Positions 33,660 through 64,000 of a stretch of 64,000 nt of DNA are shown in pieces; position 1 is the first letter of the stretch, and each line of letters opens with the position of its first letter. This DNA is from Apostichopus japonicus. Lineage: Eukaryota; Echinodermata; Holothuroidea; Aspidochirotida; Stichopodidae. The stretch lies in contig NC_092576.1 in the NCBI RefSeq assembly GCF_037975245.1, forward strand, positions 14,421,111 through 14,485,110, read 5' to 3'. The position numbers and the translations under genes were made by a program. A model generated the notes under the pieces. The model ran no database searches. It was not told the origin of the DNA and saw only the letters and a program-made list of their open reading frames with translations.

Positions 33660-33979
33660 CAGGGGCGTTGCCAGGATTTTCAAAGTTGTAGGTACGACTA
33701 TCTTAGCGGAGCGCCACCATCAGTTGGCGCGGAGCGTACAAGAAAATTTTGGTTTTACAAACCCCCCAGATGGCCGGAAACGGCCCTTCCCGAGGGTTCA
33801 TTCTGGTTCCCTGGCCTCTTGCTAACTTGAGACACCTCATTCAATAATATCTCTTTTAAACCCCCAAAACAACAAGTTAAAATATTAATATAGAATTATG
33901 GGTGTTTTTAAAAAGAGATAACTTGGCCAAAAAAAGTGTAGGCCCGGGCCTACAGTGCTACATACTGGCTACGCCCCTG
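33660..33979. mobile_element. 320-bp MITE with CAGGGGCGT termini, copy 1
   Basis: The termini CAGGGGCGTTGCCAG and CTGGCTACGCCCCTG are inverted repeats matching at 14 of 15 positions. The insertion splits the satellite core: the left flank ends ATATA and the right flank begins ATATA, and removing the element plus one ATATA restores the standard monomer. The apparent target duplication is thus 5 bp, though the repetitive target leaves 1 or 3 bp possible. CAGGGGCGTAG ends are common in hAT-like elements, which usually make 8-bp duplications, so the superfamily is left open. No transposase. Internal GGCGCGGAGCG-type words are GC-richer than the host array. Confidence 0.8.
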
Positions 33980-35957: not shown

Positions 35958-36277
35958 CAGGGGCGTTGCCAGGATTTTCAAAGTTGTAGGTACGACTATC
36001 TTAGCGGAGCGCCACCATCAGTTGGCGCGGAGCGTACAAGAAAATTTTGGTTTTACAAACCCCCCAGATGGCCGGAAACGGCCCTTCCCGAGGGTTCATT
36101 CTGGTTCCCTGGCCTCTTGCTAACTTGAGACACCTCATTCAATAATATCTCTTTTAAACCCCCAAAACAACAAGTTAAAATATTAATATAGAATTATGGG
36201 TGTTTTTAAAAAGAGATAACTTGGCCAAAAAAAGTGTAGGCCCGGGCCTACAGTGCTACATACTGGCTACGCCCCTG
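35958..36277. mobile_element. 320-bp MITE with CAGGGGCGT termini, copy 2
   Basis: No difference from copy 1 was seen in the stretches compared, and the flanks are the same. It is therefore a passenger of the 2,298-bp duplication and not a second insertion event. Confidence 0.8.
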
Positions 36278-39200
36278 ATATACTGTATATACTGTACTGA
36301 TGATGTACTGTACTGTACTGTATATACTAAGAATAGGCCTTATGTAAGGTGTGCTATTTTTTTTTTGTGAAATATGAAATAAAATATTGGACAATTTTAA
36401 TTCAAAGACTTGCTTTCAATACAAAACACATGTTTATTTAAGCCCAGACATAAACATTAACTTGAGTTGTCACTTCAAATTAACACATACCATGACTTCA
36501 AAATGAAATCAGTACCCAACACACTATACTATATACTGTATATACTGTACTGTATGTACTGTACTGTATATACTAAGAATAGGCCTAATGTAAGGTCAGC
36601 TAGTTTTTTTCTGTGAAATATGAAGTGAAAATTTGAAAATTTGAATTCAAAGACTTGCTTTCAATACAAAACACATGTATATTTAAGCTCAGACAAAGAC
36701 ATTAACTTGAGTTGTCACTTGAAATTATCACATACCATGACTTCAAAATGACATCAGTACCCAACACACTATACTATATACTGTATATACTGTACTGTAT
36801 GTACTGTACTGTATATACTAAGAATAGGCCTTATGTAAGGTGTGCTATTTTTTCGTGTGAAATATGAAATAAAATATTGGAAAATTTGAATTCAAAGACT
36901 TGCTTTCAATACAAAAGACATGTATATTTAAGCCCAGACATAGACATTAACTTGAGTTGTCACTTCAAATTAACACATACCATGACTTCAAAATGAAATC
37001 AGTACCCAACACACTATACTATATACTGTATATACTGTACTGTATGTACTGTACTGTATATACTAAGAATAGGCCTAATGTAAGGTCAGCTAGTTTTTTT
37101 CTGTGAAATATGAAGTGAAAATTTGAAAATTTTAATTCAAAGACTTGCTTTCAATACAAAACACATGTATATTTAAGCTCAGACAAAGACATTAACTTGA
37201 GTTGTCACTTGAAATTATCACATACCATGACTTCAAAATGAAATCAGTACCCAACACACTATACTATATACTGTATATACTGTACTGTATGTACTGTACT
37301 GTACTGTATATACTAAGAATAGGCCTAATGTAAGGTCTGCTAGTTTTTTTCTGTGAAATATGAAGTGAACATTTGAAAATTTTAATTCAAAGACTTGCTT
37401 TCAATACAAAAGACATGTATATTTAAGCCCAGACATAGACATTAACTTGAGTTGTCACTTCAAATTAACACATACCATGACTTCAAAATGAAATCAGTAC
37501 CCAACACACTATACTATATACTGTATATACTGTACTGTATGTACTGTACTGTATATACTAAGAATAGGCCTTATGTAAGGTGTGCTATTTTTTCGTGTGA
37601 AATATGAAATAAAATATTGGAAAATTTTAATTCAAAGACTTGCTTTTAATACAAAACACATCTATATTTAAGCCCAGACATAAACATTAACTTGAGTTGT
37701 CACTTCAAATTAACACATACCATGACTTCAAAATGAAATCAGTACCCAACACACTATACTATATACTGTATATACTGTACTGTATGTACTGTACTGTATA
37801 TACTAAGAATAGGCCTAATGTAAGGTCAGCTAGTTTTTTTCTGTGAAATATGAAGTGAAAATTTGAAAATTTGAATTCAAAGACTTGCTTTCAATACAAA
37901 ACACATGTATATTTAAGCCCAGACAAAGACATTAACTTGAGTTGTCACTTGAAATTATCACATACCATGACTTCAAAATGAAATCAGTACCCAACACACT
38001 ATACTATATACTGTATATACTGTACTGTATGTACTGTACTGTACTGTATATACTAAGAATAGGCCTTATGTAAGGTCTGCTAGTTTTTTTGTGTGAAATA
38101 TGAAGTGAAAATTTGAAAATTTTAATTCAAAGACTTGCTTTCAATACAAAAGACATGTATATTTAAGCCCAGACATAGACATTAACTTGAGTTGTCACTT
38201 CAAATTAACACATACCATGACTTCAAAATGAAATCAGTACCCAACACACTTTACTATATACTGTATATACTGTACTGTATGTACTGTACTGTATATACTA
38301 AGAATAGGCCTTATGTAAGGTGTGCTATTTTTTCGTGTGAAATATGAAATAAAATATTGGAAAATTTTAATTCAAAGACTTGCTTTCAATACAAAAGACA
38401 TGTATATTTAAGCCCAGACATAAACATTAACTTGAGTTGTCACTTCAAATTAACACATACCATGACTTCAAAATGAAATCAGTACCCAACACACTATACT
38501 ATATACTGTATATACTGTACTGTATGTACTGTACTGTATATACTAAGAATAGGCCTAATGTAAGGTCAGCTAGTTTTTTTCTGTGAAATATGAAGTGAAA
38601 ATTGGAAAATTTGAATTCAAAGACTTGCTTTCAATACAAAACACATGTATATTTAAGCCCAGACATAGACATTAACTTGAGTTGTCACTTGAAATTATCA
38701 CATACCATGACTTCAAAATGAAATCAGTACCCAACACACTATACTATATACTGTATATACTGTACTGTATGTACTGTACTGTATATACTAAGAATAGGCC
38801 TTATGTAAGGTCTGCTAGTTTTTTGTGTGAAATATGAAGTGAAAATTTGAAAATTTTAATTCAAAGACTTGCTTTCAATACAAAAGACATGTATATTTAA
38901 GCCCAGACATAGACATTAACTTGAGTTGTCACTTCAAATTAACACATACCATGACTTCAAAATGAAATCAGTACCCAACACACTTTACTATATACTGTAT
39001 ATACTGTACTGTATGTACTGTACTGTATATACTAAGGATAGGCCTTATGTAAGGTGTGCTATTTTTTCGTGTGAAATATGAAATAAAACATTGGAAAATT
39101 TTAATTCAAAGACTTGCTTTCAATACAAAACACATGTATATTTAAGCCCAGACATAAACATTAACTTGAGTTGTCACTTCAAATTAACACATACCATGAC

Positions 39201-40002
39201 TTCAAAATGAAATCAGTACCCAACACACTATACTATATACTGTATATACTGTACTGTATGTACTGTACTGTATATACTAAGAATAGGCCTAATGTAAGGT
39301 CAGCTAGTTTTTTTCTGTGAAATATGAAGTGAAAATTTGAAAATTTGAATTCAAAGACTTGCTTTCAATACAAAACACATGTATATTTAAGCCCAGACAT
39401 AGACATTAACTTGAGTTGTCACTTGAAATTATCACATACCATGACTTCAAAATGAAATCAGTACCCAACACACTATACTATATACTGTATATACTGTACT
39501 GTATGTACTGTACTGTATATACTAAGAATAGGCCTTATGTAAGGTCTGCTAGTTTTTTTCTGTGAAATATGAAGTGAAAATTTGAAAATTTTAATTCAAA
39601 GACTTGCTTTCAATACAAAAGACATGTATATTTAAGCCCAGACATAGACATTAACTTGAGTTGTCACTTCAAATTAACACATACCATGACTTCAAAATGA
39701 AATCAGTACCCAACACACTATACTATATACTGTATACACTGTACTGTATGTACTGTACTGTATATACTAAGAATAGGCCTTATGTAAGGTCTGCTATTTT
39801 TGTGTGTAAAATATGAAGTAAAAATTGGGAAATTTGAATTCAAAGACTTGCTTTCAATACAAAACACATGTATATTCAAGCTCAGACATAGACATTAACT
39901 TGAGTTGTCACTTGAAATTATCACATACCCAGGACTACAACATGAAATTGGTACCCAACGCACATACTGTACTGTATGTAGTGTACTGTATACTGTATGT
40001 AC
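36278..40002. repeat. Satellite 2 array, right part
   Basis: Alternating monomers continue. Towards the right the two types become mixed (for example AGGCCTTATGTAAGGTCTGCTAG), suggesting recombination between types. Confidence 0.92.
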
Positions 40003-42642: not shown

Positions 42643-42709
42643 CAGTGATATTAATGTCCATCTTTAGGAAAAGGAATGGTTGGAACACTTCAAGAGCCCT
42701 TTCCATTGC
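42643..42709 (-). CDS. Exon cassette 1 of the array (last in transcription order)
   Basis: 67-nt minus-strand cassette, acceptor TTTTTCAACAG|GCAATGG, donor CACTG|GTAGGT. It encodes AMERALEVFQ, then PFLFLKMD, then INIT, plus one G that starts the next codon (numbering: A1 to T22 across the cassette). Compared with the consensus it has V19I. It is nearest to the terminal exon, 17.6 kb downstream. Confidence 0.45.
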
Positions 42710-43199
42710 CTGTTGAAAAAGCATATATAAAGTCATTAACTACATTGCCTTGATACAGCTGGTTAATGGAAAATAGAATCACTTGCTTTATTATATTATA
42801 TTATTTAATAATTGATATTCATCTGCAATATAGAATGAATAGGTTATATTGTCCACAATATCCAAACATGTGTACAATGAAGAAGGTACAGAAGAAATGT
42901 GGAGTTACTATATGCCAGGTTTGATTCCACTAGAAAATCAATCATATTTAGGAAAATGTACAGGTTCTATATTCTACACAATCCAAACGTGTGCACTTTA
43001 GCAACAGTTGCAGTGGGTATTTTTGAGACAAAAACCTAAGATTAATTGTGCTTAACCTATATCACGATCTGTAGGTCCTGGCAATAGCTGAATGTAAGAA
43101 CTGGATTACTTTCTAAAAGTGCAAAATAGAGTGCACAGTTAGCATTGTCCACACAATCTGAAACTGTATAAGAGTACAATGTTAGGAGTACAAGTGACT

Positions 43200-45150
43200 A
43201 CATACATGGCTTGATTGTGCTTGAACTTAAGTTCAATTGATTCATTTGGACAAATATTGTCTGCAAAGACTGAAAGAGGAGTCACAGTATTTATATTTTT
43301 ATGTTCATGCCTATTTTGTTTAGGTCAGTTACAAGGTAAAATACACATTAAGCATTATCCACACAATCTGAAACTGTACAAGAGTACAATGTTAGGAGTA
43401 CAAGTGACTACATACATGGCTTGATTGTGCTTGAACCTAAGTTCAATTGATTCACTTACAAGACTATTGTAAGCATTGTCCACACAATCTGAAATTGTAT
43501 AAGAGTACAATATTAGGAGCTCAAGTAAATACTATCATGGATTGATTGTGCTTGAACTTAAGTTCAATTGATTCATTTGGACAAATATTGTCTGCAAAGA
43601 CTGAAAGAGGAGTCACAGTATTTAATTTTTTTCGATCATGCCTATTTTGATTAGACCAGTTACAAGGTAAAATACACATTAAGCATTGTCCACACAATCT
43701 GAAACTGTACAAGAGTACAATGTTAGGAGTACAAGTGACTACATACATGGCTTGATTGTGCTTGAACCTAAGTTCAATTGATTCATTTGGACAAATATTG
43801 TCTGCAAAGACTGAAAGAGGAGTCACAGTATTTATATTTTAATGTTCATGCCTATTTTGTTTAGGCCAGTTACAAGGTAAAATACACATTAAGCATTGTC
43901 CACACAATCTGAAACTGTATAAGAGTACAATGTTAGGAGTACAAGTGACTACATACATGGCTTGATTGTGCTTGAACTTAAGTTCAATTGATTCATTTGG
44001 ACAAATATTGTCTGCAAAGACTGAAAGAGGAGTCACAGTATTTATATTTTTATGTTCATGCCTATTTTGTTTAGGTCAGTTACAAGGTAAAATACACATT
44101 AAGCATTATCCACACAATCTGAAACTGTACAAGAGTACAATGTTAGGAGTACAAGTGACTACATACATGGCTTGATTGTGCTTGAACCTAAGTTCAATTG
44201 ATTCACTTACAAGACTATTGTAAGCATTGTCCACACAATCTGAAATTGTATAAGAGTACAATATTAGGAGCTCAAGTAAATACTAACATGGATTGATTGT
44301 GCTTGAACTTAAGTTCAATTGATTCATTTGGACAAATATTGTCTGCAAAGACTGAAAGAGGAGTCACAGTATTTAATTTTTTTCGATCATGCCTATTTTG
44401 ATTAGACCAGTTACAAGGTAAAATACACATTAAGCATTGTCCACACAATCTAAAACTGTACAAGAGTACAATGTTAGGAGTACAAGTGACTACATACATG
44501 GCTTGATTGTGCTTGAACCTAAGTTCAATTGATTCATTTGGACAAATATTGTCTGCAAAGACTGAAAGAGGAGTCACAGTATTTATATTTTTATGTTCAT
44601 GCCTATTTTGTTTAGGCCAGTTACAAGGTAAAATACACATTAAGCATTGTCCACACAATCTGAAACTGTACAAGAGTACAATGTTAGGAGTACAAGTGAC
44701 TACATACATGGCTTGATTGTGCTTGAACCTAAGTTCAATTGATTCATTTGGACAAATATTGTCTGCAAAGACTGAAAGAGGAGTCACAGTATTTATATTT
44801 TTATGTTCATGCCTATTTTGTTTAGGCCAGTTACAAGGTAAAATACACATTAAGCATTGTCCACACAATCTGAAACTGTACAAGAGTACAATGTTAGGAG
44901 TACAAGTGACTGCATACATGGCTTGATTGTGCTTGAACCTAAGTTCAATTGATTCATTTGGACAAATATTGTCTGCAAAGACTGAAAGAGGAGTCACAGT
45001 ATTTATATTTTTATGTTCATGCCTATTTTGTTTAGGCCAGTTACAAGGTAAAATACACATTAAGCATTGTCCACACAATCTGAAACTGTACAAGAGTACA
45101 AGTGACTACATACATGGCTTGATTGTGCTTGAACCTAAGTTCAATTGATT
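43200..45150. repeat. Expanded run of the 210-bp module
   Basis: About ten 210-bp modules, some shortened. A 751-bp stretch is duplicated (43,215-43,424 recurs identically at 43,966-44,175). Because 210 is a multiple of three, the minus strand stays open for 273 codons (44,272-45,093) with a 70-residue period, and the plus strand gives successive 69-codon frames each ending in TGA. No splice or start context makes this coding. Confidence 0.85.
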
Positions 45151-45323
45151 CACTTACAAGACTATTGGCCCCAGAGACTGGAAAATGAGATATTAATGTT
45201 GAAGGTTAAGGCTGATTCAGATCGGGTAACTTACACAATGAAAATCATAACTGAAGCAGTCTATAATCTTCTAATCTGTTTATTACACAATTAACTTCGA
45301 GTCATTGCCCTCTGTTAACCTAC

Positions 45324-45390
45324 CAGTGATATTAACGTCCATCTTTAGGAAAAGGAATGGTTGGAAAACTTCAAGAGCCCTTTCCATTGC
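45324..45390 (-). CDS. Exon cassette 2
   Basis: Consensus peptide; one silent change (Val8 GTT). Both splice signals are intact. Confidence 0.45.
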
Positions 45391-46301
45391 CTGTTGAAAA
45401 AGCATATATAAAGTCATTAACTACATTGCCTTGACACAGCTGGTTAATGGAAAATAAAATCACATGCTTTATTATATTATAATATTTAATAACTGATATT
45501 CATCTGCAATATAGAATGAATAGGTTATATTGTCCACAATATCCAAACCTGTGTACAATGAAGAGGTCCAGGAAAAAATGTGGAGTTGCCAAATCTGACT
45601 GCACTAGAAAATCTATCATATTTAGGAAAATGTACAGGTTCTATATTCTACACAATCCAAACATGTGTGCACTTTAGCAACAGTTGCAGTGGGTATTGTT
45701 GAGACAAAAACCTAAGATTAATTGTGCTTAACCTATATCATGATCTGCAGTTCCTGGCAATAGCTGAATGTAAGAACTGGATTACTTTCTAAAAGTGCAA
45801 AATAGAGTGCACAGTTAGCATTGTCCACACAATCTGAAACTGTATAAGAGTACAATGTTAGGAGTACAAGTGACTACATACATGGCTTGATTGTGCTTGA
45901 ACTTAAGTTCAATTGATTCATTTGGACAAATATTGTCTGCAAAGACTGAAAGAGGAGTCACAGTATTTATATTTTTATGTTCATGCCTATTTTGTTTAGG
46001 CCAGTTACAAGGTAAAATACACATTAAGCATTATCCACACAATCTGAAACTGTACAAGAGTACAATGTTAGGAGTACAAGTGACTACATACATGGCTTGA
46101 TTGTGCTTGAACCTAAGTTCAATTGATTCACTTACAAGACTATTGGCCCCAGAGACTGGAAAATGAGATATTAATGTTGAAGGTTAAGGCTGATTCAGAT
46201 CGGGTAACTTACACAATGAAAATCATAACTGAAGCAGTCTATAATCTTCTAATCTGTTTATTACACAATTAACTTCGAGTCATTGCCCTCTGTTAACCTA
46301 C

Positions 46302-46368
46302 CAGTGATATTAACGTCCATCTTTAGGAAAAGGAATGGTTGGAAAACTTCAAGAGCCCTTTCCATTGC
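46302..46368 (-). CDS. Exon cassette 3
   Basis: No difference from cassette 2 was seen; it lies in the second of the two 978-bp twin units. Confidence 0.45.
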
Positions 46369-47279
46369 CTGTTGAAAAAGCATATATAAAGTCATTAACT
46401 ACATTGCCTTGACACAGCTGGTTAATGGAAAATAAAATCACATGCTTTATTATATTATAATATTTAATAACTGATATTCATCTGCAATATAGAATGAATA
46501 GGTTATATTGTCCACAATATCCAAACCTGTGTACAATGAAGAGGTCCAGGAAAAAATGTGGAGTTGCCAAATCTGACTGCACTAGAAAATCTATCATATT
46601 TAGGAAAATGTACAGGTTCTATATTCTACACAATCCAAACATGTGTGCACTTTAGCAACAGTTGCAGTGGGTATTGTTGAGACAAAAACCTAAGATTAAT
46701 TGTGCTTAACCTATATCATGATCTGCAGTTCCTGGCAATAGCTGAATGTAAGAACTGGATTACTTTCTAAAAGTGCAAAATAGAGTGCACAGTTAGCATT
46801 GTCCACACAATCTGAAACTGTATAAGAGTACAATGTTAGGAGTACAAGTGACTACATACATGGCTTGATTGTGCTTGAACTTAAGTTCAATTGATTCATT
46901 TGGACAAATATTGTCTGCAAAGACTGAAAGAGGAGTCACAGTATTTATATTTTTATGTTCATGCCTATTTTGTTTAGGCCAGTTACAAGGTAAAATACAC
47001 ATTAAGCATTATCCACACAATCTGAAACTGTACAAGAGTACAATGTTAGGAGTACAAGTGACTACATACATGGCTTGATTGTGCTTGAACCTAAGTTCAA
47101 TTGATTCACTTACAAGACTATTGGCCCCAGAGACTGGAAAATGAGATATTAATGTTGAAGGTTAAGGCTGATTCAGATCGGGTAACTTACACAATGAAAA
47201 TCATAACTGAAGCAGTCATTAAGGTTCTAATCTGTTTATTACACAATTAACTTCGAGTCATTGCCCTCAGTTAACCTAC

Positions 47280-47347
47280 CAGTGATATTAACGTCAGTCT
47301 TTAAGAAAAGGATATGGTTGGAACACTTCAAGAGCCCTTTCCATTGC
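47280..47347 (-). pseudogene. Exon cassette 4, frameshifted
   Basis: 68 nt instead of 67: an extra base in GGATATGG (consensus GGAATGG) shifts the frame, and ATGGAC is also altered. Splice signals remain, but inclusion would not restore the downstream frame. A dead member of the array. Confidence 0.5.
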
Positions 47348-48264
47348 CTGTTGAAAAAGCATATATAAAGTCAATAACTACATTGACTTGATACAGCTGG
47401 TTAATGGAAAATAGAATCACATGCTTTATTATACTGTAATATTTAATAATTGATATTAATCTGCAATATAGAATAAATAGGTTATATTGTCAACATTATA
47501 CAAACCTGTGTACAATGAAGAAGGTACATTAAGAAATGTGGAGTTACTACGCCATATTTGACAGCACTAGAAAATCTATAATATTTAGGAAAATGTACAG
47601 GTTCTATATTCTACACAATCCAAACATGTGTGTACTTTAGCAACAGTTGCAGTGGGTATTTTTGAGACAAAAACCTAAGATTAATTGTGCTTTAACCTAT
47701 ATCATGTTCTGCAGTTCCTGGTAATAACTGAATGTAAGAACTGGATTCATTTCTAAAAGTACAAAATAGAGTGCACAGTAAGCATTGTCCACACAATCTG
47801 AAATTGTATAAGAGTACAATATTAGGAGCTCAAGTAAATACTAACATGGATTGATTGTGCTTGAACGTAAGGTCAATTATTCATTTGGACAAATATTGTC
47901 TTCAAAGACTGAAGGTGGAGTCATAGTGTTTAAAAATGTTTGTTCATGCCTATTTTGATTAGACCAGTTACAAGGTAAAGTACACATGAAGCATTATCCA
48001 CACAATCTGAAACTGTACAAGAGTACAATGTTAGGAGTACAAGTGACTACAAACATGGCTTGATTGTGCTTGCACCTAAGCTCAATTGATTCACTTACAG
48101 GACTATTGGCCCCAGAGACTGGAAAATGAGATATTAATGTTGAAGGTTAAGGCTGATTCAGATCGGGTAACTTACAAAACGACAATCGTAACTGAAGCAG
48201 TCATTAATGTTCTAATATGTTTATAACACAATTAACTTAAAGTCATTTCCCTCTGTTAACCTAC

Positions 48265-48331
48265 CAGTGATATTAACGTCCATCTTTAGGAAAAGGAATG
48301 GTTGGAAAACTTCAAGAGCCTTTTCCATTGC
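48265..48331 (-). CDS. Exon cassette 5
   Basis: Open; R4K and silent Val8 GTT. Splice signals intact. Confidence 0.42.
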
Positions 48332-49471
48332 CTGTTGAAAAAGCATATATAAAGTCAATAACTACATTGCCTTGATACAACTGGTTAATGGAAAATAGAA
48401 TCACATGCTTTATTTCACATGCTTTATTATATTATAATATTTAATAATTGATATTAATCTGCAATATAGAATGAATAGGTTATATTGTTAACATTATACA
48501 AACCTGTGTACAATGAAGAAGGTACATTAAGAAATGTGGAGTTACTATGCCATATTTGACAGCACTAGAAAATCTATAATATTTAGGAAAATGTACAGGT
48601 TCTATATTCTACACAATCCAAACATGTGTGCACTTTAGCAACAGTTGCAGTGGGTATTGTTGAGACAAAATCCTCAGATTAATTGTGCTTGAACTTATTT
48701 CATGATCTAAAGCTCTTGGCTTTAGCTGATTAAGAACTGGATTAATTTCTAAAAGTACAAAATAGAGTGCACAGTAAGCATTGTCCATACAATCTGAAAC
48801 TGTATAAGGGTACCATGTTAGGAGCTCAAGTAAATACTAACATGGTTTGATTGTGCTTGAACTTAAGTTCAATTGATTCATTTGGACAAATATTGTCTGC
48901 AAAGACTGAAAGAGGAGTCACAGTATTTAATTTTTTTCGATCATGCCTATTTTGATTAGACCAGTTACAAGGTAAAATACACATTAAGCATTGTCCACAC
49001 AATCTGAAACTGTACAAGAGTACAATGTTAGGAGTACAAGTGACTACATACATGGCTTGATTGTGCTTGAACCTAAGTTCAATTGATTCATTTGGACAAA
49101 TATTGTCTGCAAAGACTGAAAGAGGAGTCACAGTATTTATATTTTTATGTTCATGCCTATTTTGTTTAGGCCAGTTACAAGGTAAAATACACATTAAGCA
49201 TTGTCCAACCAATCTGAAACTGTACAAGAGTACAATGTTAGGAGTACAAGTGACTACATACATGGCTTGATTGTGCTTGAACCTAAGTTCAATTGATTCA
49301 CTTACAAGACTATTGGCCCCAGAGACTGGAAAATGAGATATTAATGTTGAAGGTTAAGGCTGATTCAGATCGGGTAACTTACACAATGAAAATCATAACT
49401 GAAGCAGTCTTTAATCTTCTAATCTGTTTATTACACAATTAACTTCGAGTCATTGCCCTCTGTTAACCTAC

Positions 49472-49538
49472 CAGTGATATTAACGTCCATCTTTAGGAAA
49501 AGGAATGGTTGGAAAACTTCAAGAGCCCTTTCCATTGC
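49472..49538 (-). CDS. Exon cassette 6
   Basis: Consensus peptide. The acceptor is slightly altered (TTTTCCAACAG). Confidence 0.42.
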
Positions 49539-50231
49539 CTGTTGGAAAAGCATATATAAAGTCATTAACTACATTGCCTTGACACAGCTGGTTAATGGAA
49601 AATAAAATCACATGCTTTATTATATTATATTATTTAATAATTGATATTCATCTGCAATATAGAATGAATAGGTTATATTGTCCACAATATCCAAACCTGT
49701 GTACAATGAAGAGGTCCAGGAAAAAATGTGGAGTTGTTATATCTGACTGCACTAGAAAATCTATCATATTTAGGAAAATGTACAGGTTCTATATTCTACA
49801 CAATCCAAACATGTGTGCACTTTAGCAACAGTTGCAGTGGGTATTGTTGAGACAAAAACCTAAGATTAATTGTGCTTTAACCTATATCATGATCTGCAGG
49901 TCCTGGCAATAGCTGAATGTAAGAACTGGATTACTTTCTAAAAGTGCAAAATAGAGTGCACAGCTAGCATTGTCCACACAATCTGAAACTGTATAAGAGT
50001 ACAATGTTAGGAGTACAAGTGACTACATACATGGCTTGATTGTGCTTGAACCTAAGTTCAATTGATTCACTATTGGCCCCAGAGACTGGAAAATGAGATA
50101 TTAATGTTGAAGGTTAAGGCTGATTCAGATCGGGTAACTTACACAATGAAAATCATAACTGAAGCAGTCTTTAATCTTCTAATCTGTTTATTACACAATT
50201 AACTTCGAGTCATTGCCCTCTGTTAACCTAC

Positions 50232-50298
50232 CAGGGATATTAACGTCCATCTTTAGGAAAAGGAATGGTTGGAACACTTCAACAGCCCTTTCCATTGC
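50232..50298 (-). CDS. Exon cassette 7
   Basis: Open; L6V and T22P. The donor-side exon base changes to CCCTG|GTAGGT. It sits in a short unit, only 760 bp from cassette 6. Confidence 0.4.
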
Positions 50299-51210
50299 CT
50301 GTTGAAAAAGCATATATAAAGTCATTAACTACATTGACTTGACACAGCTGGTTAATGGAAAATAAAATCACATGCTTTATTATATTATAATATTTAATAA
50401 TTGATATTCATCTGCAATATAGAATGAATAGGTTATATTGTCCACAATATCCAAACCTGTGTACAATGAAGAGGTCCAGGAAAAAATGTGGAGTTGCCAT
50501 ATCTGACTGCACTAGAAAATCTATCATATTTAGGAAAATGTACAGGTTCTATATTTTACACAATCCAAACATGTGTGCACTTTAGCAACAGTTGCAGTGG
50601 GTATTGTTGGGAAAAAAACCTAAGATTAATTGTGCTTTAACCTATATCATGATCTGCAGTTCCTGGCAATAGCTGAATGAAAGAACTGGATTAATTTCTA
50701 CAAGTACAACATAGCGTGCACAGTAAGCATTGTCCACACAATCTGAGACTGTATAAGAGTACAATGTTAGGAGCTCAAGTAAATACTAGCATGGTTTGAT
50801 TGTGCTTGGACTTAAGTTCAATTGATTCATTTGGACAAATATTGTCTGCAAAGACTGAAAGAGGAGTCACAGTATTTAAATTTTTTGGTTCATGCCTATT
50901 TTAATTAGGCCAGCTACAAGGTAAAATACACATTAAGCATCATCCACACAATCTGAAACTGTACAAGAGTACAATGTTAGGAGTACAAGTGACTGCAAAC
51001 ATGGCTTGAGTGTGCTTGAACCTAAGTAAAATTGATTCACTTACAAAACGATTGTCCCCAGAGACTGGAAAAGGAGATATTAATGTTTAAGGTTAAGGCT
51101 GTTTCAGATCGGGTAACTTAGACAATGACAATCGTAACTGAAGCAATCATTAATCTTCTAATCTGTTTATTGCACAATTAACTTCAAGTCACTGCCGTCT
51201 GTGAACCTAC

Positions 51211-51277
51211 CAGTAATATTCACGTCCATCTTTAGGCAAAGGAATGGTTGGAACACTTCCAGAGCCCTTTCCATTGC
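51211..51277 (-). CDS. Exon cassette 8
   Basis: Open; F14C, with silent changes at Leu6, Val19 and Ile21. The donor reads GTAGGTTCAC. Confidence 0.42.
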
Positions 51278-51920
51278 CTGTTGAAAAAGCATATATAAAA
51301 TCATTAACTACATTGCCTTTATACAGCTGGTTAATGGAAAACAGAATCACATGCTTTATTATATTATAATATTAAATCATTGATATTCATTCTGCAATAT
51401 AGAATGAATAGGTAATATTGTCCACAATATCCAAACCTGTGTACAATGAAGAAGGTACAGTAAGAAATTTGGAGTTACTATGCCAGATTGGACTGCACTA
51501 GAAAATCTATAATATTTAGGAAAATATACAGGTTCCATATTCTACACAATCCTAACACGCACTTTAGCAACAGTTGCAGTGGCTATTGTTGAGATAAAAC
51601 CCTAAGATTAATTGTGCTTTAACCTATATCATGATCTGCAGTTCCTGGCAATAGCTGAATGAAAGAACTGGATTAATTTCTACAAGTACAAAATAGAGTG
51701 CACAGTTAGCATTGTCCACCCAATCTGAAACTGTATAAGAGTACAATGTTAGGAGCGCAAGTTAATACTAACATGGTTTGATTGTGCTTGAACTCTACTT
51801 CAATTGGTTCATTTGGACAAATATTGTCTGCAAAGACTGAAAGAGGAGTCACAGTATTTCTATTTATTGTTCATGCCTATTTTGATTAGGCCAGTTACAA
51901 GGTAAAATACACATTAGGCA

Positions 51921-51977
51921 AATGTCCATGTTTAGGAAAAGAAATGGTTGGAACACTTCAACAGCCCTTTCCATTGC
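51921..51977 (-). pseudogene. Truncated exon cassette, no donor (i)
   Basis: The acceptor and first ~18 codons are present, but sequence breaks away to ATTTGCCTAATG before the donor. It lies in a truncated satellite unit and cannot act as an internal exon. Confidence 0.5.
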
Positions 51978-52886
51978 CTGTTGAAAAGTATATAAAGTCA
52001 TTAACTACATTGCTTTGATACAGTTGGTTAATGGAAAATAGAATCACATTCTTTATTGTATTCTAATATTTAATAATTGATATTCATCTGCAATATAGAA
52101 TGAATAGGTTATATTGTCCACAATATCACAACCTGTGTACAATGAAGAAGGTACAGTAAGAAATGTGGAGTTACTATGCCAGATTTGACTGCACTAGAAA
52201 ATCTATAATACTTAGGAAAATGTACAGGTTCTATATTCTACACAATCCAAACAAGTGTACACTTTAGCAACAGTTGCAGTGGGTATTGTTGAGACAAAAA
52301 CCTAAGATTAATTGTGCTTTTACCTATACCATGATCTGCAGTTCCTGGCATTAGCTGAATGTAAGAACTGGATTAATTTATAACAGTACAAAATAGAGTG
52401 CACAGTAAGCATTGTCCACACAATCTGAAATTGTATAAGAGTACAATGTTAGGAGCGCAAGTTAATACTAACATGGCTTGATTGTGCTTGAACTTAAGTT
52501 CAATTGATTTATTTGGACGAATATTGTCTGCAAAGACTGAAAGAGGAGTCACAGTATTTAAATTGTTTCATTCATGCCTATTTTGATTAGTCCAGTAATT
52601 AGGTAAAATACACATTAAGCATTGTCCACACAATCTGAAACTGTACAAGAGTACAATGTTAGTGAGTACAAAAGACTACAAACAGGCTTGAGTGTGCTTG
52701 AACCTAAGTTCAATTGATTCGATTACAAAACTATCTTCAGAGACTGGAAAAGGAGATATCAATGTTTACGGTTAAGGCTGTTTCAGATCGGGTAACTTAC
52801 ACAACGACAATCGTAACTGAAGCAGTCATTAATCTAATCTGTTTATTACACAATTAACTTCAAGTCATTGCCCTCAGTTAACCTAC

Positions 52887-52953
52887 CAGTGATATTAACA
52901 TCCATCTTCAGGAAAAGGAATGGTTGGAACACTTCAAGAGCCCTTTCCATTGC
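52887..52953 (-). CDS. Exon cassette 9
   Basis: Consensus peptide with silent changes at Leu15 (CTG) and Asp18 (GAT). Confidence 0.43.
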
Positions 52954-53598
52954 CTGTTGAAAAAGCATATATAAAGTCATTAACTACATTGCCTTGATAC
53001 AGCTGGTTAATGGAAAATAGAATCACTTGCTTTAATATATTATAATATTTAATAATTCATATTAATCAGCAATATAGCATGAATAGGTTATATTGTCCAC
53101 AATATCCAAACCTGTGTACAATGCAGAAGGTACAGTAAGAAACGTGGACTTACTATGCCAAATTTGACTGCACTAGAAAATCTGTAATATTTATGAAAAT
53201 GTACAGGTTCTATATTCTACACAATCCAAACATGGGTGCACTTTAGCAACAGTTGCAGTGGGTATTGTTGAGACAAAACTCTAAGATTAATTGTGCTTGA
53301 GCTATATCATGATCTGCAGTTATTGGCAATAGCTGAATGTAACAACTGGATTAATTTCTAAAAGTACAAAATAGAGTGCACAGTTAGCATTGTCCACCCA
53401 ATCTGAAACTGTACAAGAGAACAATGTTAGGAGCTCAAGTAAATGCTAACATGGTTTGATTGTGCTTGAACTCTACTTCAATTGGTTTATTTGGACAAAT
53501 ATTGTCTGCAAAGACTGAAAGAGGAGTCACAGTATTTCTATTTATTGTTCATGCCTATTTTGATTAGGCCAGTTACAAGGTAAAATACACATTAGGCA

Positions 53599-53655
53599 AA
53601 TGTCCATGTTTAGGAAAAGAAATGGTTGGAACACTTCAACAGCCCTTTCCATTGC
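53599..53655 (-). pseudogene. Truncated exon cassette, no donor (ii)
   Basis: Same broken form as at 51,921-51,977, 1,678 bp away. It was duplicated together with its truncated unit. Confidence 0.5.
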
Positions 53656-54570
53656 CTGTTGAAAAGTATATAAAGTCATTAACTACATTGCTTTGATACA
53701 GTTGGTTAATGGAAAATAGAATCACATTCTTTATTGTATTCTAATATTTAATAATTGATATTCATCTGCAATATAGAATGAATAGGTTATATTGTCCACA
53801 ATATCACAACCTGTGTACAACGAAGAAGGTACAGTAAGAAATGTGGAGTTACTATGCCAGATTTGACTGCACTAGAAAATCTATAATACTTAGGAAAATG
53901 TACATGTTCTATATTCTACACAATCCAAACAAGTGTGCACTTTAGCAACAGTTGCAGTGGGTATTGTTGAGACAAAAACCTAAGATTAATTGTGCTTTAA
54001 CCTATACCATGATCTGCAGTTCCTGGCATTAGCTGAATGTAAGAACTGGATTAATTTGTAACAGTACAAAATAGAGTGCACAGTAAGCATTGTCCACACA
54101 ATCTGAAACTGTATAAGAGTACAATGTTAGGAGCGCAAGTTAATACTAACATGGTTTGATTGTGCTTGAACTTAAGTTCAATTGATTCATATGGACAAAT
54201 ATTGTCTGCAAAGACTGAAAGAGGAGTCACAGTGTTTAAGTTTTTTCGTTCATGCCTATTATGATTAGGCCAGTAACTAGGTAAAATACACATTAAGCAT
54301 TTTGTCCACACAATCTGAAACTGTACAAGAGTACAATGTTAGGAGTACAAGTGACTACAAACATGGCTTGAGTATGCTTGAACCTAAGTTCAATTGTTTC
54401 AATTACAAAACATTCTTCAGAGACTGGAAAAGAAGATATGAATGTTGAAGGTTAAGGCTGTTTTCAGATCGGGTAACTTATACAACGTCAATCGTAACTG
54501 AAGCAGTCATTAATCTTCTAATCTGTTTATTACACAATTAACTTGTACTCATTGCCCTCAGTTAACCTAC

Positions 54571-54637
54571 CAGTGATATTAACATCCATCTTTAGGAAAA
54601 GGAATGGTTGGAACACTTCAAGAGCCCTTTCCATTGC
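54571..54637 (-). CDS. Exon cassette 10
   Basis: Consensus peptide with silent Asp18. The acceptor pyrimidine tract is weakened (TTTTTAAACAG). Confidence 0.4.
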
Positions 54638-55547
54638 CTGTTTAAAAAGCATACAAAGCCATTAACTGCATTGCCTTGATACAGCTGGTGAATGGAAAAT
54701 AGAATCACATGCTTTATTATATTATAATATTTAATAATTGATATTTATCTGCAATATAATATGAATAGGTTATATTGTCCACAATTCCCAAAACCTGTGT
54801 ACAATGAAGAAGGTACAGTAAGAAATGTGGAGTTACTTTGCCAGATTTGACTGCATTAGAAAATCTATAATATTTAGGAAAATGTACAGGTTCTATATTC
54901 TACACAATCCAAACATGGGTGCACTTTAGCAACAGTTGCAGTGGCTATTGTTGAGATAAAACCCTAAGATTAATTGTGCTTTAACCTATATCATGATCTG
55001 CAGTTCCTGGCAATAGCTGAATGAAAGAACTGGATTAATTTCTACAAGTACAACATAGCGTGCACAGTAAGCATTGTCCACACAATCTGAAATTGTATAA
55101 GAGTACAATGTTAGAAGCGCAAGTTAATACTAACATGGCTTGATTGTGCTTGAACTTAAGCTCAATTGATTTATTATGACGAATATTGTCTGCAAAGACT
55201 GAAAGGGAGTCACAGTATTTAAATTGTTTCGTTCATGCCTATTTTGATTAGGCCAGTAACTAGGTAAAATACACATTAAGCATTGTCCACACAATCTGAA
55301 ACTGTACAAGAGTACAATGTTAGTGAGTACAAGTGACTACAAACAGGCTTGAGTGTGCTTGAACCTAAGTTCAATTGATTCGATTACAAAACTATCTTCA
55401 GAGACTGGAAAAGGAGATATCAATGTTTAAGGTTAAGGCTGTTTCAGATCGGGTAACTTACACAACGACAATCATAACTGAAGCAGTCATTAATCTAATC
55501 TGTTTACTACACAATTAACTTCAAGTCATTGCCCTCAGTTAACCTAC

Positions 55548-55614
55548 CAGTGATATTAACATCCATCTTCAGGAAAAGGAATGGTTGGAACACTTCAAGA
55601 GCCCTTTCCATTGC
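55548..55614 (-). CDS. Exon cassette 11
   Basis: Consensus peptide, silent Leu15 and Asp18. Acceptor TTTTTTAACAG. Confidence 0.42.
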
Positions 55615-56172
55615 CTGTTAAAAAAGCATATATAAAGTCATTAACTACATTGCCTTGCTACAGCTGGTTGGTTAATGGAAAATAGAATCACTTGCTTTAA
55701 TATATTATAATATTTAATAATTGATATTAATCTGCAATATAGAATGAATAGGTTATATTGATTGTGCTTGAACTTTACTTCAATTCATTCATTTGGACAA
55801 ATATTGTCTGCAAAGACTGAAGGAGGAGTCACAGTGTTTAAATCGTTTCGTTCATGCTTATTTTGATTAGACCAGTTACAAGGTAAAGCACACATTAAGC
55901 ATTGTCCACACAATCTGAAACTGTACAAGAGTACAATGTTAGGAGTACAAGTGATTACAAACAGGCTTGAGTGTGCTTGAACCTAAGTTCAATTGATTCA
56001 CTTACAAAACGATTGTCCCCAGAGACTGGAAAAGGAGATATTAATGTTGAAGTTTAAGGCTGTTTTCAGATCGGGTAACTTACACAACATCAATCGTAAC
56101 TGAAGCAGTCATTAATCTTCTAATCTGTTTATTGCACAATTAACTTCAAGTCATTGCCCTCTGTGAACCTAC

Positions 56173-56239
56173 CAGTAATATTCACGTCCATTTTTAGGCA
56201 AAGGAATGGTTGGAACACTTCCAGAACCCTTTCCATCGC
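56173..56239 (-). CDS. Exon cassette 12
   Basis: Open; A5V and F14C, with silent changes at Ala1, Leu6, Lys16, Val19 and Ile21. Closely related to cassette 8. Confidence 0.42.
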
Positions 56240-57144
56240 CTGTTGAAAAAACATATATAAAATCATTAACTACATTGCCTTGATACAGCTGGTTAATGGA
56301 AAACAGAATCACATGCTTTATTATATTATAATATTAAATAATTGATATTAATCTGCAATATAGAATGAATAGGTAATATTGTCCAAAATATCCAAACCTG
56401 TGTACAATGAAGAAGGTACAGTAAGAAATTTGGAGTTACTATGCCAGATTTGACTGCACTAGAAAATCTATATTTAGGAAAATATACAGGTTCCATATTC
56501 TACACAATCCAAACACGCACTTTAGCAACAGTTGCAGTGGCTATTGTTGAGATAAAACCCTAAGATTAATTGTGCTTTAACCTATATCATGATCTGCAGT
56601 TCCTGGCAATAGCTGAATGAAAGATCTGGATTAATTTCTACAAGTACAACATAGCGTGCACAGTAAGCATTGTCCACACAATCTGAAATTGTATAAGAGT
56701 ACAATGTTAGGAGCGCAAGTTAATACTAACATGGCTTGATTGTGCTTGAACTTAAGTTCAATTGATTTATTTGGACGAATATTGTCTGCAAAGACTGAAA
56801 GAGGAGTCACAGTATTTAAATTGTTTCGTTCATGCCTATTTTGATTAGGCCAGTAACTAGGTAAAATACACATTAAGCATTGTCCACACAATCTGAAACT
56901 GTACAAGAGTACAATGTTAGTGAGTACAAGCGACTACAAACAGGCTTGAGTGTGCTTGAACCTAAGTTCAATTGATTCGATTACAAAACTATCTTCAGAG
57001 ACTGGAAAAGGAGATATCAATGTTTAAGGTTAAGGCTGTTTCAGATCGGGTAACTTACACAACGACAATCATAACTGAAGCAGTCATTAATCTAATCTGT
57101 TTATTACACAATTAACTTCAAGTCATTGCCCTCAGTTAACCTAC

Positions 57145-57211
57145 CAGTGATATTAACATCCATCTTCAGGAAAAGGAATGGTTGGAACACTTCAAGAGCC
57201 CTTTCCATTGC
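57145..57211 (-). CDS. Exon cassette 13
   Basis: Same coding sequence as cassettes 9 and 11 (consensus peptide, silent Leu15 and Asp18). Confidence 0.43.
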
Positions 57212-58133
57212 CTGTTGAAAAAGCATATATAAAGTCATTAACTACATTGCCTTGATACAGCTGGTTGGTTAATGGAAACTAGAATCACTTGCTTTAATAT
57301 ATTATAATATTTAATAATTGATATTAATCTGCAATATAGCATGAATAGGTTATATTGTCCACAATATCCAAACCTGTGTACAATGCAGAAGGTACAGTAA
57401 GAAACGTGGACTTACTATGCCAGATTTGACTGCACTAGAAAATCTGTAATATTTATGAAAATGTACAGGTTCTATATTCTACACAATCCAAACATCTGTG
57501 CACTTTAGCAACAGTTGCAGTGGGTATTGTTGAGACAAAACTCTTAGATTAATTGTGCTTAAGCTATATAATGATCTGCAGTTATTGGCAATAGCTGAAT
57601 GTAACAACTGGATTAATTTCTAAAAGTACAAAATAGAGTGCACGGTTAGCATTGTCCACCCAATCTGAAACTGGACAAGAGAACAATGTTAGGAGCTCAA
57701 GTAAATACTAACATGGTTTGATTGTGCTTGAACTTAAGTTCAATTGGTTCATTTGGACAAATATTGTCTGCAAAGACTGAAAGAGGAGTCACAGTTTTTA
57801 AATTGTTTCGTTCATGCCTATTTTGTTTTTAGGCCAGTTACAAGGTAAAGTACACATTAAGCATTGTGCACACAATCTGAAACTGTACAACAGTATAATG
57901 TTAGGAGTACAAGTGACTTCAAACATGGCTTGATTGTGCTTGAATCTAAGTTCAATTGATTCACTTACAAAACTATTTTCCCAAGAGACTGGAAAATGAG
58001 ATATTAATGTTTAAGGTTAAGACTGATTCAGATCAGGTAACTTACACAACGACAATTGAACTGAAGCAGTCATTAATCTTCTAATCTGTTTAATACACAA
58101 TTAACTTAAAGTCATTGCCCTCAGTTAACCTAC

Positions 58134-58200
58134 CAGTGATATTAACGTCCATCTCAAGGAAAAGGAATGGTTGGAACACTTCAGGAGCCCTTTCCATTGC
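58134..58200 (-). CDS. Exon cassette 14
   Basis: Open; L6P and K16E, both uncommon in the array. Confidence 0.4.
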
Positions 58201-59113
58201 CTGTTGAAAAGTATATAAAGTCATTAACTACATTGCTTTGATGCAGCTGATTAATGGAAAATAGAATCACCTTTTTTGTTATAATATGATATTTAATAAT
58301 TGATATTAATCTACATTATAGAATGAATAGGTTATATTGTCCACAAGATCCAAACATGTGTACAATGAAGAAGGAACATGAAGAAATGTGGAGTTACTAT
58401 GCCAGATTTGGGTGCACTAGAAAATCTATAATATTTAGGAAAATGTACAGGTTCTATATTCTACACAATCCAAACATGTGTGTACTTTAGCAACAGTTGC
58501 AGTGGGTATTTTTGAGACAAAAACCTAAGATTAATTGTGCTTTAGCCTTTATCATGTTCTGCAGTTCCTGGCATTAACTGAATGTAAGAACTGGATTAAT
58601 TTCTAAAAGAACAAAATAGAGTGCACAGTAAGCATTGTCCACACAATCTGAAATTGTACAAGAGTACAATGTTAGGAGCTCAAGTTAATACTAACATGGT
58701 TTGATTGTGCTTGAACTTTACTTCAATTGATTCATTTGGACAAATATTGTCTGCAAAGACTGAAGGAGGAGTCACAGTGTTTAAATTGTTTCATTCATGC
58801 CTATTTTGATTAGACCAGTTACAAGGTAAAGTACACATTAATCATTGTCCACACAATCTGAAACTGTACAAGAGTACAATGTTAGGAGTACAAGTGACTA
58901 CAAACAGGCTTGAGTGTGCTTGAACGTAATTTCAATTGATTCACTTACAAAACGATTGTCCCCAGAGACTGGAAAAGGAGATATTTATGTTGAAGGTTAA
59001 GGCTGATTCAGATCGGGTAACTTACACAACGACAATCGTAACTGAAGCAGTCTTTAATCTTCTAATCTGTTTATTACACATTAACTGCATGTCATTGCCC
59101 TCAGTTAACCTAC

Positions 59114-59180
59114 CAGTGATATTAACGTCCATCTTCAGGAAAAGAAATGGTTGGAACACTTCAAGAGCCCTTGCCATTGC
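59114..59180 (-). CDS. Exon cassette 15
   Basis: Open; E3A, with silent Phe12 and Leu15. Confidence 0.42.
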
Positions 59181-60100
59181 CTGTTGAAAAAGCATATAAA
59201 GTCATTAACTACTTTGCCTTGATACAGCTGGTTAATGGAAAATAGAATCACCTTTTATTATTTTAATATGATATATAATAATTGATATTAATCTGCAATA
59301 TAGAATGAATAGGTTATATTGTCCACAATATCCAAACTTGTGTAAAATGAAGAAGGTACAGTAAGAAATGTGGAGTTACTATGCCAGATTTGACTGCACT
59401 AGAAAATCTATAATATTTAGGAAAATGTACAGGTTCTATATTCTACACAATCCAAACAAGTGTGCACTTTAGCAACAGTTGCAGTGGGTATTGTTTGGAC
59501 AAAAACCTAAGATTAATTGTGCTTTAACCTATATCATGTTCTGCAGTTCCTGGCAATAACTGAATGTAACAACTGGATTAATTTCTAAAAGTACAAAATA
59601 GAGTGAAGTGCACAGTAAGCATTGTCCACACAATCTGAAACTGTATAAGAGTACAATGTTAGGAGCTCAAGTAAATACTAACATGGTTTGATTGTGCTTG
59701 AACTTAAGTTCAATTGATTCGTATGGACAAATATTGTCTGCAAAGACTGAAAGATGAGTCACAGTGTTTAAGTTTTTTCGTTCATGCCTATTATGATTAG
59801 ACTAGTTACAAGGTAAAGTACACATTAAGCATTGTCCACACAATCTGAAACTGTACAAGAGTACAATGTTAGGAGTACAAGTGACTACAAACATGGCCTG
59901 ATTGTGCTTGAACCTAAGTTCAATTGATTCACTTACAAAACAATTGTCCCAGAGACTGGAAAAGGAGATATTAGTGTTGAAGGTTAAGGCTGATTCAGAT
60001 CGGGTAACTCACACAATGACAATCGTAACTGAGCAGTCATTGATCTTCTAATCTGCTTATTACACAATTAACTTCAAGTCATTGCCCTCAGTTAACCTAC

Positions 60101-60167
60101 CAGTGATATTAACGTCCATCTTCAGGAAAAGAAATGGTTGGAACACTTCAAGAGCCCTTTCCATTGC
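60101..60167 (-). CDS. Exon cassette 16
   Basis: Consensus peptide; silent Phe12 (TTT) and Leu15 (CTG). Confidence 0.43.
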
Positions 60168-61087
60168 CTGTTGAAAAAGCATATATAAAATCATTAACTA
60201 CATTGCCTTGATACAGCTGGTAAATAGAAAATAGAATCACATGCTTTATTACATTATAATATTTAATAATTAATATTAATCTGCAATATAGAATGAATAG
60301 GTTATATTGTACACAATATCCAAACCTGTGTACAATGAAGAAGGTACATTAAGAAATGTGGACTTACTATGCCAGATTTGACTGCACTAGAAAATCTAAA
60401 TATTTAGGGAAATGTACAGGTTCTATATTCTACACAATCCAAACAAGTGCGCACTTTAACAACAATTGCAGTGGGTATTGTTCAGAAAAAACTCTAAGAT
60501 TATTTACGCTTTAACCTATACAGTATCATATTCTGCAGTTCTGGCAATAACTGAATGTAAGAACTGGATTAATTTCTAAAAGTACAAAATAGAGTGCACG
60601 GTAAGCATTGTCCACACAGTCTGAAACTGTATAAGAGTACAATGTTAGGAGCTCAAGTAAATACTAACATGGTTTGATTGTGCTTGAACTTAAGTTCAAT
60701 TGATTCATTTGGACAAATATTGACTGCAAAGACTGAAAGAGGAGTCACAGTATTTTTTTTTTTTTGTTCATGCCTATTATGATTAGACTAGTTACAAGGT
60801 AAAGTACACATTAAGCATTATCCACACAATCTGAAACTGTACAAGAGTACAATGTTAGGAGTACAAGTGACTACAAACATGTCTTGATTGTGCTTGAATC
60901 TAAGTTCAATTGATTCACTTACAAAACTATTTTCCCCAGAGACTGGAAAATGAGATATTAATGTTTAAGGTTAAGACTGATTCAGATCGGGTAACTTACA
61001 CAATGACAATTGAACCAAAGCAGTCATTAATCTTCTAATCTGTTTAATACACAATTAACTTAAAGTCATTGCCCTCAGTTAACCTAC

Positions 61088-61154
61088 CAGTGATATTAAC
61101 GTCCATCTCAAGGAAAAGGAATGGTTGGAGCACTCCAAGAGCCCTTTCCATTGC
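61088..61154 (-). CDS. Exon cassette 17
   Basis: Open; E7G, F9L and K16E, the most altered of the open copies. The region before the acceptor is TATATTCTTTTTCAACAG. Confidence 0.4.
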
Positions 61155-62091
61155 CTGTTGAAAAAGAATATATAAAGTCATTAACTACATTGCCTTGATA
61201 CAGCTGGTTAATGGAAAATAGAATCACCTTTTTTATTATAATATGATATTTAATAATTGATATTAATCTGCGATATAGAATGAATAGGTTATATTGTCCA
61301 CAATATCCAAACCTTTGTAAAATGAAGAAGGTACAGTAAGAAATGTGGAGTTACTATGCCAGATTTGACTGCACTAGAAAATCTATAATATTTAGGAAAA
61401 TGTACAGGTTCTATATTCTACACAATCCAAACAAGTGTGCACTTTAGCAAAAGTTGCAGTGGGTATTGTTTGGACAAAAACCTAAGATTAATTGTGCTTT
61501 AACCTATATCATGTTCTGCAGTTCCTGGCAATAACTGAATGTAACAACTGGATTAATTTCTAAAAGTACAAAATAGAGTGAAGTGCACAGTAAGCATTGT
61601 CCACACAATCTGAAACTGTATAAGAGTACAATGTTAGGAGCTCAAGTAAATACTAACATGGTTTGATTGTGCTTGAACTTAAGTTCAATTGATTCGTATG
61701 GACAAATATTGTCTGCAAAGACTGAAAGAGGAGTCACAGTATTTAAATTTTTTCGTTCATGCTTATTATGATTAGACTAGTTACAAGGTAAAGTACACAT
61801 TAAGCATTGTCCACACAATCTGAAACTGTACAAGAGTACAATGTTAAGAGTACAGTACAAGTGACTACAAACATGGCCTGATTGTGCTTGAACCTAAGTT
61901 CAATTGATTCACTTACAAAACAATTGTCCCAGAGACTGGAAAAGGAGATATTAGTGTTGAAGGTTAAGGCTGATTCAGATCGGGTAACTCACACAATGAC
62001 AATCGTATCTGAAGCAGTCATTGATCTTCTAATCTGTTTATTACACAATTAACTTCAATTCATTGCCCTCATTTAACCTACCAGTGATATT

Positions 62092-62158
62092 AACGTCCAT
62101 CTTCAGGAAAAGAAATGGTTGGAACACTTCAAGAGCCCTTTCCATTGCCTGTTGAAAA
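62092..62158 (-). CDS. Exon cassette 18 (first in transcription order)
   Basis: Consensus peptide with silent Phe12 and Leu15, intact acceptor and donor. It lies 1.5 kb downstream of the exon ending at 63,678, and would be the first cassette met by the splicing machinery. Confidence 0.48.
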
Positions 62159-63677: not shown

Positions 63678-63815
63678 CTTGAATAAAGTTGAGTAAACTT
63701 CGGCCGTAGACTGTATTACGTAAAAGTGACGAGTAAGGTCATTAGCAAACTTGAAGGCGTCGGCTTTCTCATTCAGATACTGTAGCGACGGTGCTTGCTC
63801 ACGCTCATTTAGATG
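63678..63815 (-). CDS. Upstream coding exon of the minus-strand gene
   Basis: Minus-strand open stretch of 46 codons ending TTCAAG|GTTAGT, an acceptable donor. The peptide includes EREQAPSLQYLNEKADAFKF and ends STAEVYSTLFK; it is charged and helical-looking, with CpG-containing codons that set it apart from the flanks. It ends exactly between codons (phase 0), matching the GCA ATG start of the cassettes. The 5' limit is uncertain: an in-frame TAA lies at 63,816-63,818, there is no in-frame ATG, and the nearby ATG (AAATGAGC) is out of frame. Either an acceptor lies within the stretch (for instance before TATCTGAATG) or the gene is damaged here. The family is not recognised. Confidence 0.6.
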
Positions 63816-63818
63816 TTA

Positions 63819-64000
63819 AGCTGCTGTACAAGATTATGTGGACCGGACTTTTGAGGGCGCTATGCGAATTTTGGAATGATTAAAATCACTTTCAACCGAT
63901 TATGTGGACAAAAATAAAAGTTCGTAATTTCACTAGGAGCGTATGTTTTGTGGGGGGTAGAGCCTGTTTAGAGCAACTGCGTTACGTGGACATCGAATGT
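63819..64000. other. Unique DNA with satellite 1 palindrome half-sites
   Basis: The 12-mer GATTATGTGGAC, the half-site of the satellite 1 palindrome, occurs at 63,832-63,843 and 63,898-63,909, and the related GTTACGTGGAC at 63,981-63,991. No satellite 1 monomer is present around them. Confidence 0.6.

Follow-up and report, generated by a model that had tools for sequence, protein, structure and literature searches.

Exon-like cassettes in a satellite array carried by a putative giant mobile element of Apostichopus japonicus

Introduction

Satellite arrays are carried by HINEs, which are non-autonomous Helentrons of Crassostrea gigas with a 3' palindrome and a preference for TT insertion sites (PMC7492417). 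This study concerns a stretch of 64,000 nucleotides of Apostichopus japonicus (contig NC_092576.1, positions 14,421,111 to 14,485,110; the whole stretch is hereafter called the window), in which an array of exon-like cassettes of 67 nt lies on the minus strand between two proposed exons, the head and the tail, and which we read as a copy of a giant mobile element. The element resembles HINEs in being dispersed, in the subterminal inverted repeats that each of its ends carries, in its central tandem repeats, and in that no coding capacity was found; unlike HINEs it has no 3' palindrome beyond shuffled sequences, its ends as read abut (TA)n microsatellites and not TT, and it measures ~50-70 kb with three satellites. 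In its structure it recalls the non-autonomous Helentrons.

Giant transposons of eukaryotes include the Polintons/Mavericks, Teratorn and the Terminons (review: PMC6431247). The element shares with them that a unit of tens of kilobases appears to be mobile. Polintons/Mavericks, Teratorn and Terminons carry recognisable enzymes; unlike in these, no enzyme was found in the part scanned here, and much of the element is satellite DNA.

For the arrangement of the cassettes the comparison is with the mutually exclusive exon clusters of the Dscam type (PMC8042237, PMC6071210). Like those clusters, the array is a series of exon-like cassettes that resemble one another, flanked on either side by a possible exon, and the reading frame permits one of them; unlike them, no docking/selector pairing was found, the flanking 'exons' appear unconstrained, and the length of the array varies between copies. 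A limited literature search listed no report of a transposon that harbours a satellite array of exon-like units.

An original prediction made from the letters of the window had proposed either a young exon-choice system or an exon trapped in an expanding satellite. The explanation that fits best, at a probability of roughly 0.6, is that of a trapped exon in a satellite borne by a transposon, with the locus as a copy of a giant mobile element.

Results

Dispersed copies and common ends

Among the parts of the element are the following (positions of the window).

63678 to 64000, minus strand: 5' part of the element, which includes the proposed head exon (34 codons in an open frame at 63779-63678; donor AAG/GTTAGT after 63678)
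41790 to 62750, minus strand: higher-order satellite array with a unit of ~980 bp, built partly of 210/121-bp sub-repeats, that holds all the cassettes (limits set by eye)
42643 to 62148, minus strand: 20 exon-like cassettes (BLAST)
24827 to 24996, minus strand: proposed tail exon (HNELNSNKDLPTEY...WFKEA*; 18 genomic copies, 16 of them open)

The genome searches were run on the assembly of 671,581,487 bases in 35 contigs, and the C-numbers used below are its chromosomes, the window lying on C16. A query of 401 bp around the head had 18 matches on C2, C8, C9, C15, C16 and C17, of which 16 were near full-length and the two partial ones both fell within the copy at C16:43.1M. The 5' end of the element also had 18 matches, 15 of them over all 191 nt, while the others began at base 4, began at base 8 with 88% identity, or consisted of a 90-nt piece. 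The tail was matched 18 times, and a query that stops 36 bp short of the 3' end 26 times, nine of these being diverged relatives. When the coordinates of the 5' end, the tail and the 3' end were paired, 13 copies had both ends and the tail, with lengths between ~49.1 kb (C8) and 68.8 kb (C16:38.4M); in the remaining five tail-bearing copies an end is lost or unread, as in the copy in the window and that at C2:18.0M (N-run). With the joined peptide of head, cassette and tail (124 aa) as the query, matches to all three parts fell at these places, 150 of the 261 candidates having been scored. This recurrence of head, array and tail at ~18 places, which sets the satellite inside a dispersed giant element, had been overlooked in the original prediction, and by these comparisons the locus is one of ~18 dispersed copies of what we take to be a large mobile element.

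A (TA)n run borders the 5' end of the element, which lies 76 bp beyond the right edge of the window (L001:76). At all 16 readable 5' junctions (the window and 15 loci on six chromosomes; one further locus, L018, is all N and was excluded from the count) the common sequence ...CTCTCACTCGACCTGGATTACGTGGACATTCG follows (TA)n, in one case (L017) in slightly altered form. Between the outer flanks, of 510-630 bp each, no BLAST match at 1e-5 was found in any of 120 pairs after masking of low complexity. Two 3' ends were read, on C2 and C8, and in both ...GTCCACATAAACCAGGTAATATATG is directly followed by (TA)n. The diverged relative that was read on C3 (L043) likewise ends in (TA)n. Common to both ends is an inverted motif, ACCTGGwTTAyGTGGAC, ~8-10 bases inside the ends as set here, and the subterminal inverted repeats ACCTGGATTACGTGGAC and ACCTGGTTTATGTGGAC are imperfect. 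The last 79 nt were also folded in search of a 3' palindrome, and folded no better than shuffled sequences (z -0.06; 88 of 200 shuffles as good). The dispersed copies with identical ends, the unrelated flanks and the inverted motif point to a mobile DNA element.

Neighbouring copies occur as pairs on C9 and on C15, which have equal end-to-end lengths, different outer flanks, and zero mismatches in the element ends compared (739 and 753 bp) and in ~1.2 kb around the tail; their identity suggests recent local moves. Such neighbouring pairs, together with the lack of a transposase among the open reading frames (ORFs) scanned, would also agree with a segmental duplication of a host locus in place of a mobile element, but a duplicated segment would not be expected to have the same end against (TA)n at every readable 5' junction on six chromosomes, flanks without any resemblance and an inverted motif at both ends, and we regard this explanation as the least probable of those weighed here.

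The diverged relatives of the 3' end (76-85%) lie at C3:8.50, 8.58 and 8.63 Mb and at C12:2.41, 2.45, 2.50, 4.49, 13.55 and 13.63 Mb, some of them 40-80 kb apart. In 10 kb beside the 3' ends of two of them, on C12 (L042) and C3 (L043), which were considered with a view to an autonomous partner, one C12 ORF among those of at least 90 amino acids (aa) may be a retroelement fragment.

The cassette array and its probable movement with the element

The first bases of the 20 cassettes, all on the minus strand, are as follows.

Cassettes 1 to 10: 62148, 61154, 60167, 59180, 58200, 57211, 56239, 55614, 54637, 53655 (truncated)
Cassettes 11 to 20: 52953, 51977 (truncated), 51277, 50298, 49538, 48331, 47347 (68 nt, frameshift), 46368, 45390, 42709

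Seventeen of them measure 67 nt and one, at 47347-47280, measures 68 nt with its frame shifted; the two truncated ones (53655 and 51977), which the original prediction did not list, are both cut after 57 nt. The 18 full-length minus-strand cassettes that it did list were recovered by BLAST, and 17 of these 18 keep the same open frame, as had been stated. All 18 have AACAG before and GTAGGT after the cassette, and the acceptor named earlier, CAACAG, is present in 16. Of the 19 spacings 13 are 972-994 bp and the rest 625, 700, 702, 760, 1,207 and 2,681 bp.

Of the 18 copies with a tail, 17 showed cassette matches in the search that scored 150 of 261 candidates; the exception, C16:16.3M, is without the 5' end. 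Among the matches listed, the numbers of cassettes with exact edges per copy were 12, 15 (C2), 6 (C8), 5, 5 (C9) and 18 (C15:5.12M), as against 18 in the window, and a copy at C9:23.96M had three cassettes and no tail. The search by cassette edges gave 249 matches including unrelated repeats, with 23 for the backward control, and 15 variants were typed among the matches listed, which extend to part of the second C15 copy. At C15:5.12M the first eight cassettes agree with those of the window in their diagnostic variants and in the order of these. From this shared order it appears that the array moved as a block, that it is older than the spread of the element, and that units were lost or gained afterwards.

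Besides the array, the element in this window holds two further satellites.

30404 to 39991, unstranded: 245/250-bp satellite of this copy of the element
1 to 20336, unstranded: 331-bp satellite in the 3' part of the element, with a palindrome GGATTATGTGGACCGTCCACATAATC related to the end motif, running left into an N-run

The 245-bp satellite gave no match in the C9 copy, of which the first 31 kb were read and in which ~12 kb absent from the window come after the array. The palindrome GGATTATGTGGACCGTCCACATAATC has 393 exact occurrences in the genome. A stretch of ~1.2 kb just upstream of the tail (25320-26570), including a 278-bp repeat pair, is present in the window and missing from the C9 copy. 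At C2:18075700-18077400 (L036) the 331-bp satellite is followed by an N-run of ~100 bases and then by a tandem repeat with a tRNA-like GGTTCGAACCCC, in which ARAGORN finds no tRNA.

The units of ~980 bp also contain, for example near 42497-42478 (minus strand), a piece of 20 nt with the acceptor TTTTCCAG and the donor GTAAGTG, which with the cassette would amount to 29 codons (67+20 nt). As a candidate exon partner (acceptor CTTTTCCAG, donor GTAAGT; 67+20=87 nt) this piece was dropped, since its splice-site pair ranked eighth (13.5 vs 18.9) and its length is unsteady among the units read (20, 19 or 17 nt).

Was the cassette once an exon?

Splice sites were scored with frequency tables of such sites. 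On the consensus of the 982-bp unit the top-scoring acceptor and the top-scoring donor are those of the cassette, and their pair ranked first among 137 sense and 86 antisense candidates; its score was reached by 7 of 400 shuffles in the sense and 3 of 400 in the antisense orientation. In the cassettes of the window the variability was 0.118 at third codon positions, as compared with 0.035 at first and 0.040 at second positions, an excess equalled in diversity by only six of 749 control windows of the same units (the two truncated cassettes were left out of both counts). With the C9 copies added it was matched in 14 (diversity) and 52 (alleles) of 749 windows. The mean diversity was 0.063 in the cassette vs 0.100 outside. 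Silent changes made up 10 of the 21 distinct changes in the window and C9 cassettes, where ~27% would be expected (P = 0.035), in agreement with the earlier statement that about half of the substitutions are silent; the counts of silent and missense changes were made without the 68-nt and the truncated cassettes. Considering the best splice-site pair and the modest excess at third codon positions, the cassette may be a one-time exon, and the balance of the evidence leans towards its having been one; the second proposal of the original prediction, a trapped exon in a satellite that expands, agrees with these results.

A different explanation is that the cassette was never an exon, being an ordinary part of the satellite with splice-like edges and an open frame by chance. 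The open frames themselves would be expected under it, because only 1.8% of the point changes in the cassette create a stop, so that the 17 open frames among 18 are uninformative. Other long frames exist in the same repeats: in the window one of 277 aa runs across the 210-bp sub-repeats (44272-45105, minus strand; 210 = 70 codons), with Pfam matches below threshold only (HlyIII, 20.7 of 26.2 bits), and 31 kb of the C9 copy hold 43 ORFs of at least 75 aa. The 277-aa frame is an example of how readily these repeats give rise to open frames. The changes confined to other copies of the element were two silent to seven missense, and the joined peptide had no relative in Pfam, where all matches were below threshold, or in the PDB, where the best E-value was 1.6. 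Against it stand the position of both of the unit's best splice sites at the cassette edges, the third-position excess that by diversity six of 749 control windows attain, and the surplus of silent changes in the window and C9 cassettes; we hold this explanation to be possible but rather unlikely.

Exon choice among the cassettes

It was further considered whether the element carries a working exon-choice array, in which transcripts would run from head to tail and take up one cassette out of many. The arithmetic of the reading frame, which had been worked out correctly in the original prediction, is in line with this, as the joined frame of head, one cassette and tail is open, and with two or three cassettes it meets a stop inside the second. 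Besides the open frames of 17 of the 18 cassettes and their top-ranked splice-site pair, the ranks of the head donor (4 of 87 nearby) and of the tail acceptor (18 of 1258) are also in its favour.

The head frame, however, begins at TATCTG, and a search for an in-frame ATG in it found none; the first in-frame ATG of the joined frame, and its sole start, lies in the cassette and would yield, if anything is translated, a product of 77 aa (MERALEVF...), which has no relative in Pfam or the PDB. With the start codon in the cassette the frame lock of the head would become irrelevant, additional cassettes would amount to short upstream frames, and no rule of 'one only' would be needed. The head and the tail also change as fast as the introns (compared without the N-filled locus L018): the rate in the head was 0.118 per site vs 0.105 and 0.093 in the adjoining DNA, its 12 distinct changes across copies being four silent and eight missense, and that in the tail was 0.036 per site vs 0.040 and 0.052, with no silent changes, five missense and one stop. 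Neither part thus gives a sign of constraint, in a test whose power is low because the copies are young. Broken frames occur in single copies, with a stop (L030) and a frameshift (L035) among the 18 tails and a 1-base deletion inside (L009) or at the edge (L016) of the head.

In search of a docking/selector pairing, the 910 nt that precede the array and the 1,280 nt that follow it were paired with the unit consensus. The pairing was no better than in shuffles, as the best duplexes (-47.1 and -49.4 kcal/mol) were equalled by 18 of 30 and 6 of 30 shuffled sequences. A genome search with at most two mismatches found no copy of a cassette-tail or cassette-cassette junction, and for the head-cassette junction only two matches with two mismatches each, the same number as the backward control; both are weak negatives. 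The tail protein, searched for a host gene of origin, matched only the 18 copies of the element even at E 10, and the cassettes differ little in protein sequence.

Given the missing ATG of the head, the unconstrained head and tail, the open frames expected in any case, the proportion of changes in other copies and the absence of pairing, the young exon-choice system of the original prediction is not supported. We consider a working array of this kind improbable, and a present use of the cassette as an exon appears unlikely.

Other observations

Beyond the 5' end of the element, 3.6 kb to the right of the window (L001:3575-4558, plus strand), there is a single-exon ORF of 327 aa that matches 7tm_1 (rhodopsin-type receptor) with 45 bits. 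An unrelated repeat (AACAGGCCAAATGGAAACCC...) is found at C12:14.8-16.8 Mb, C4:10.3-10.9 Mb and C11:21.6-22.0 Mb, recurring only within these limited regions at a wide spacing of mostly 120-230 kb.

Discussion

In the explanation that we favour, the locus would be a copy of an apparently non-autonomous DNA mobile element of ~50-70 kb with its ends at (TA)n microsatellites, inside which three different satellites expanded. A 67-nt piece resembling a former exon would have been caught in the unit of ~980 bp and multiplied passively with it. The array would have been built before the element spread and would since have travelled as a block, with later loss and gain of units, probably by unequal exchange.

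Several points weigh against parts of this reading. To its left the copy in the window passes into an N-run, with loss of its 3' end, and for most of the element the reading covers parts of two copies. Because the ends lie in (TA)n, no target-site duplication can be made out, and the (TA)n might be part of the element itself. Of the ORFs, 20 were scanned, namely 12 of the 43 of C9, from the part that only the C9 copy has, and eight of the nine of the window; none of them reached a Pfam cut-off, and no transposase was found among them or in one further C9 ORF of 133 aa. With regard to a former exon the evidence is modest, and the cassette had been chosen beforehand. The third-position excess counted by allele number was as large in 41 of 749 control windows, a diversity as low as that of the cassette was found in 80 of 747 windows, and among all sampled variants the silent changes were 12 of 30 (P = 0.085).

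Under a still stronger proposal the element would continue to splice a single cassette into each transcript, and every insertion would bring a ready set of 5 to 18 interchangeable first coding exons to another place in the genome. If this were true, the start codon would lie in the cassette and the size of the exon set would vary with the length of the array between insertions; from the present comparisons we consider it very improbable.

The anatomy of the element is unusual, and there is no evidence for a new function. In the seven copies counted, which are otherwise similar, the exon-like piece is present 5 to 18 times, in arrays of differing length, and open frames in repeats of low divergence, as seen here, are poor evidence for genes. 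The copies may serve as a natural experiment on the speed of satellite change after a single move and on the use or neglect of amplified splice sites. More generally, the locus suggests that a satellite array may expand within a mobile element and afterwards be carried along as a whole, which would join two topics that are usually studied apart.

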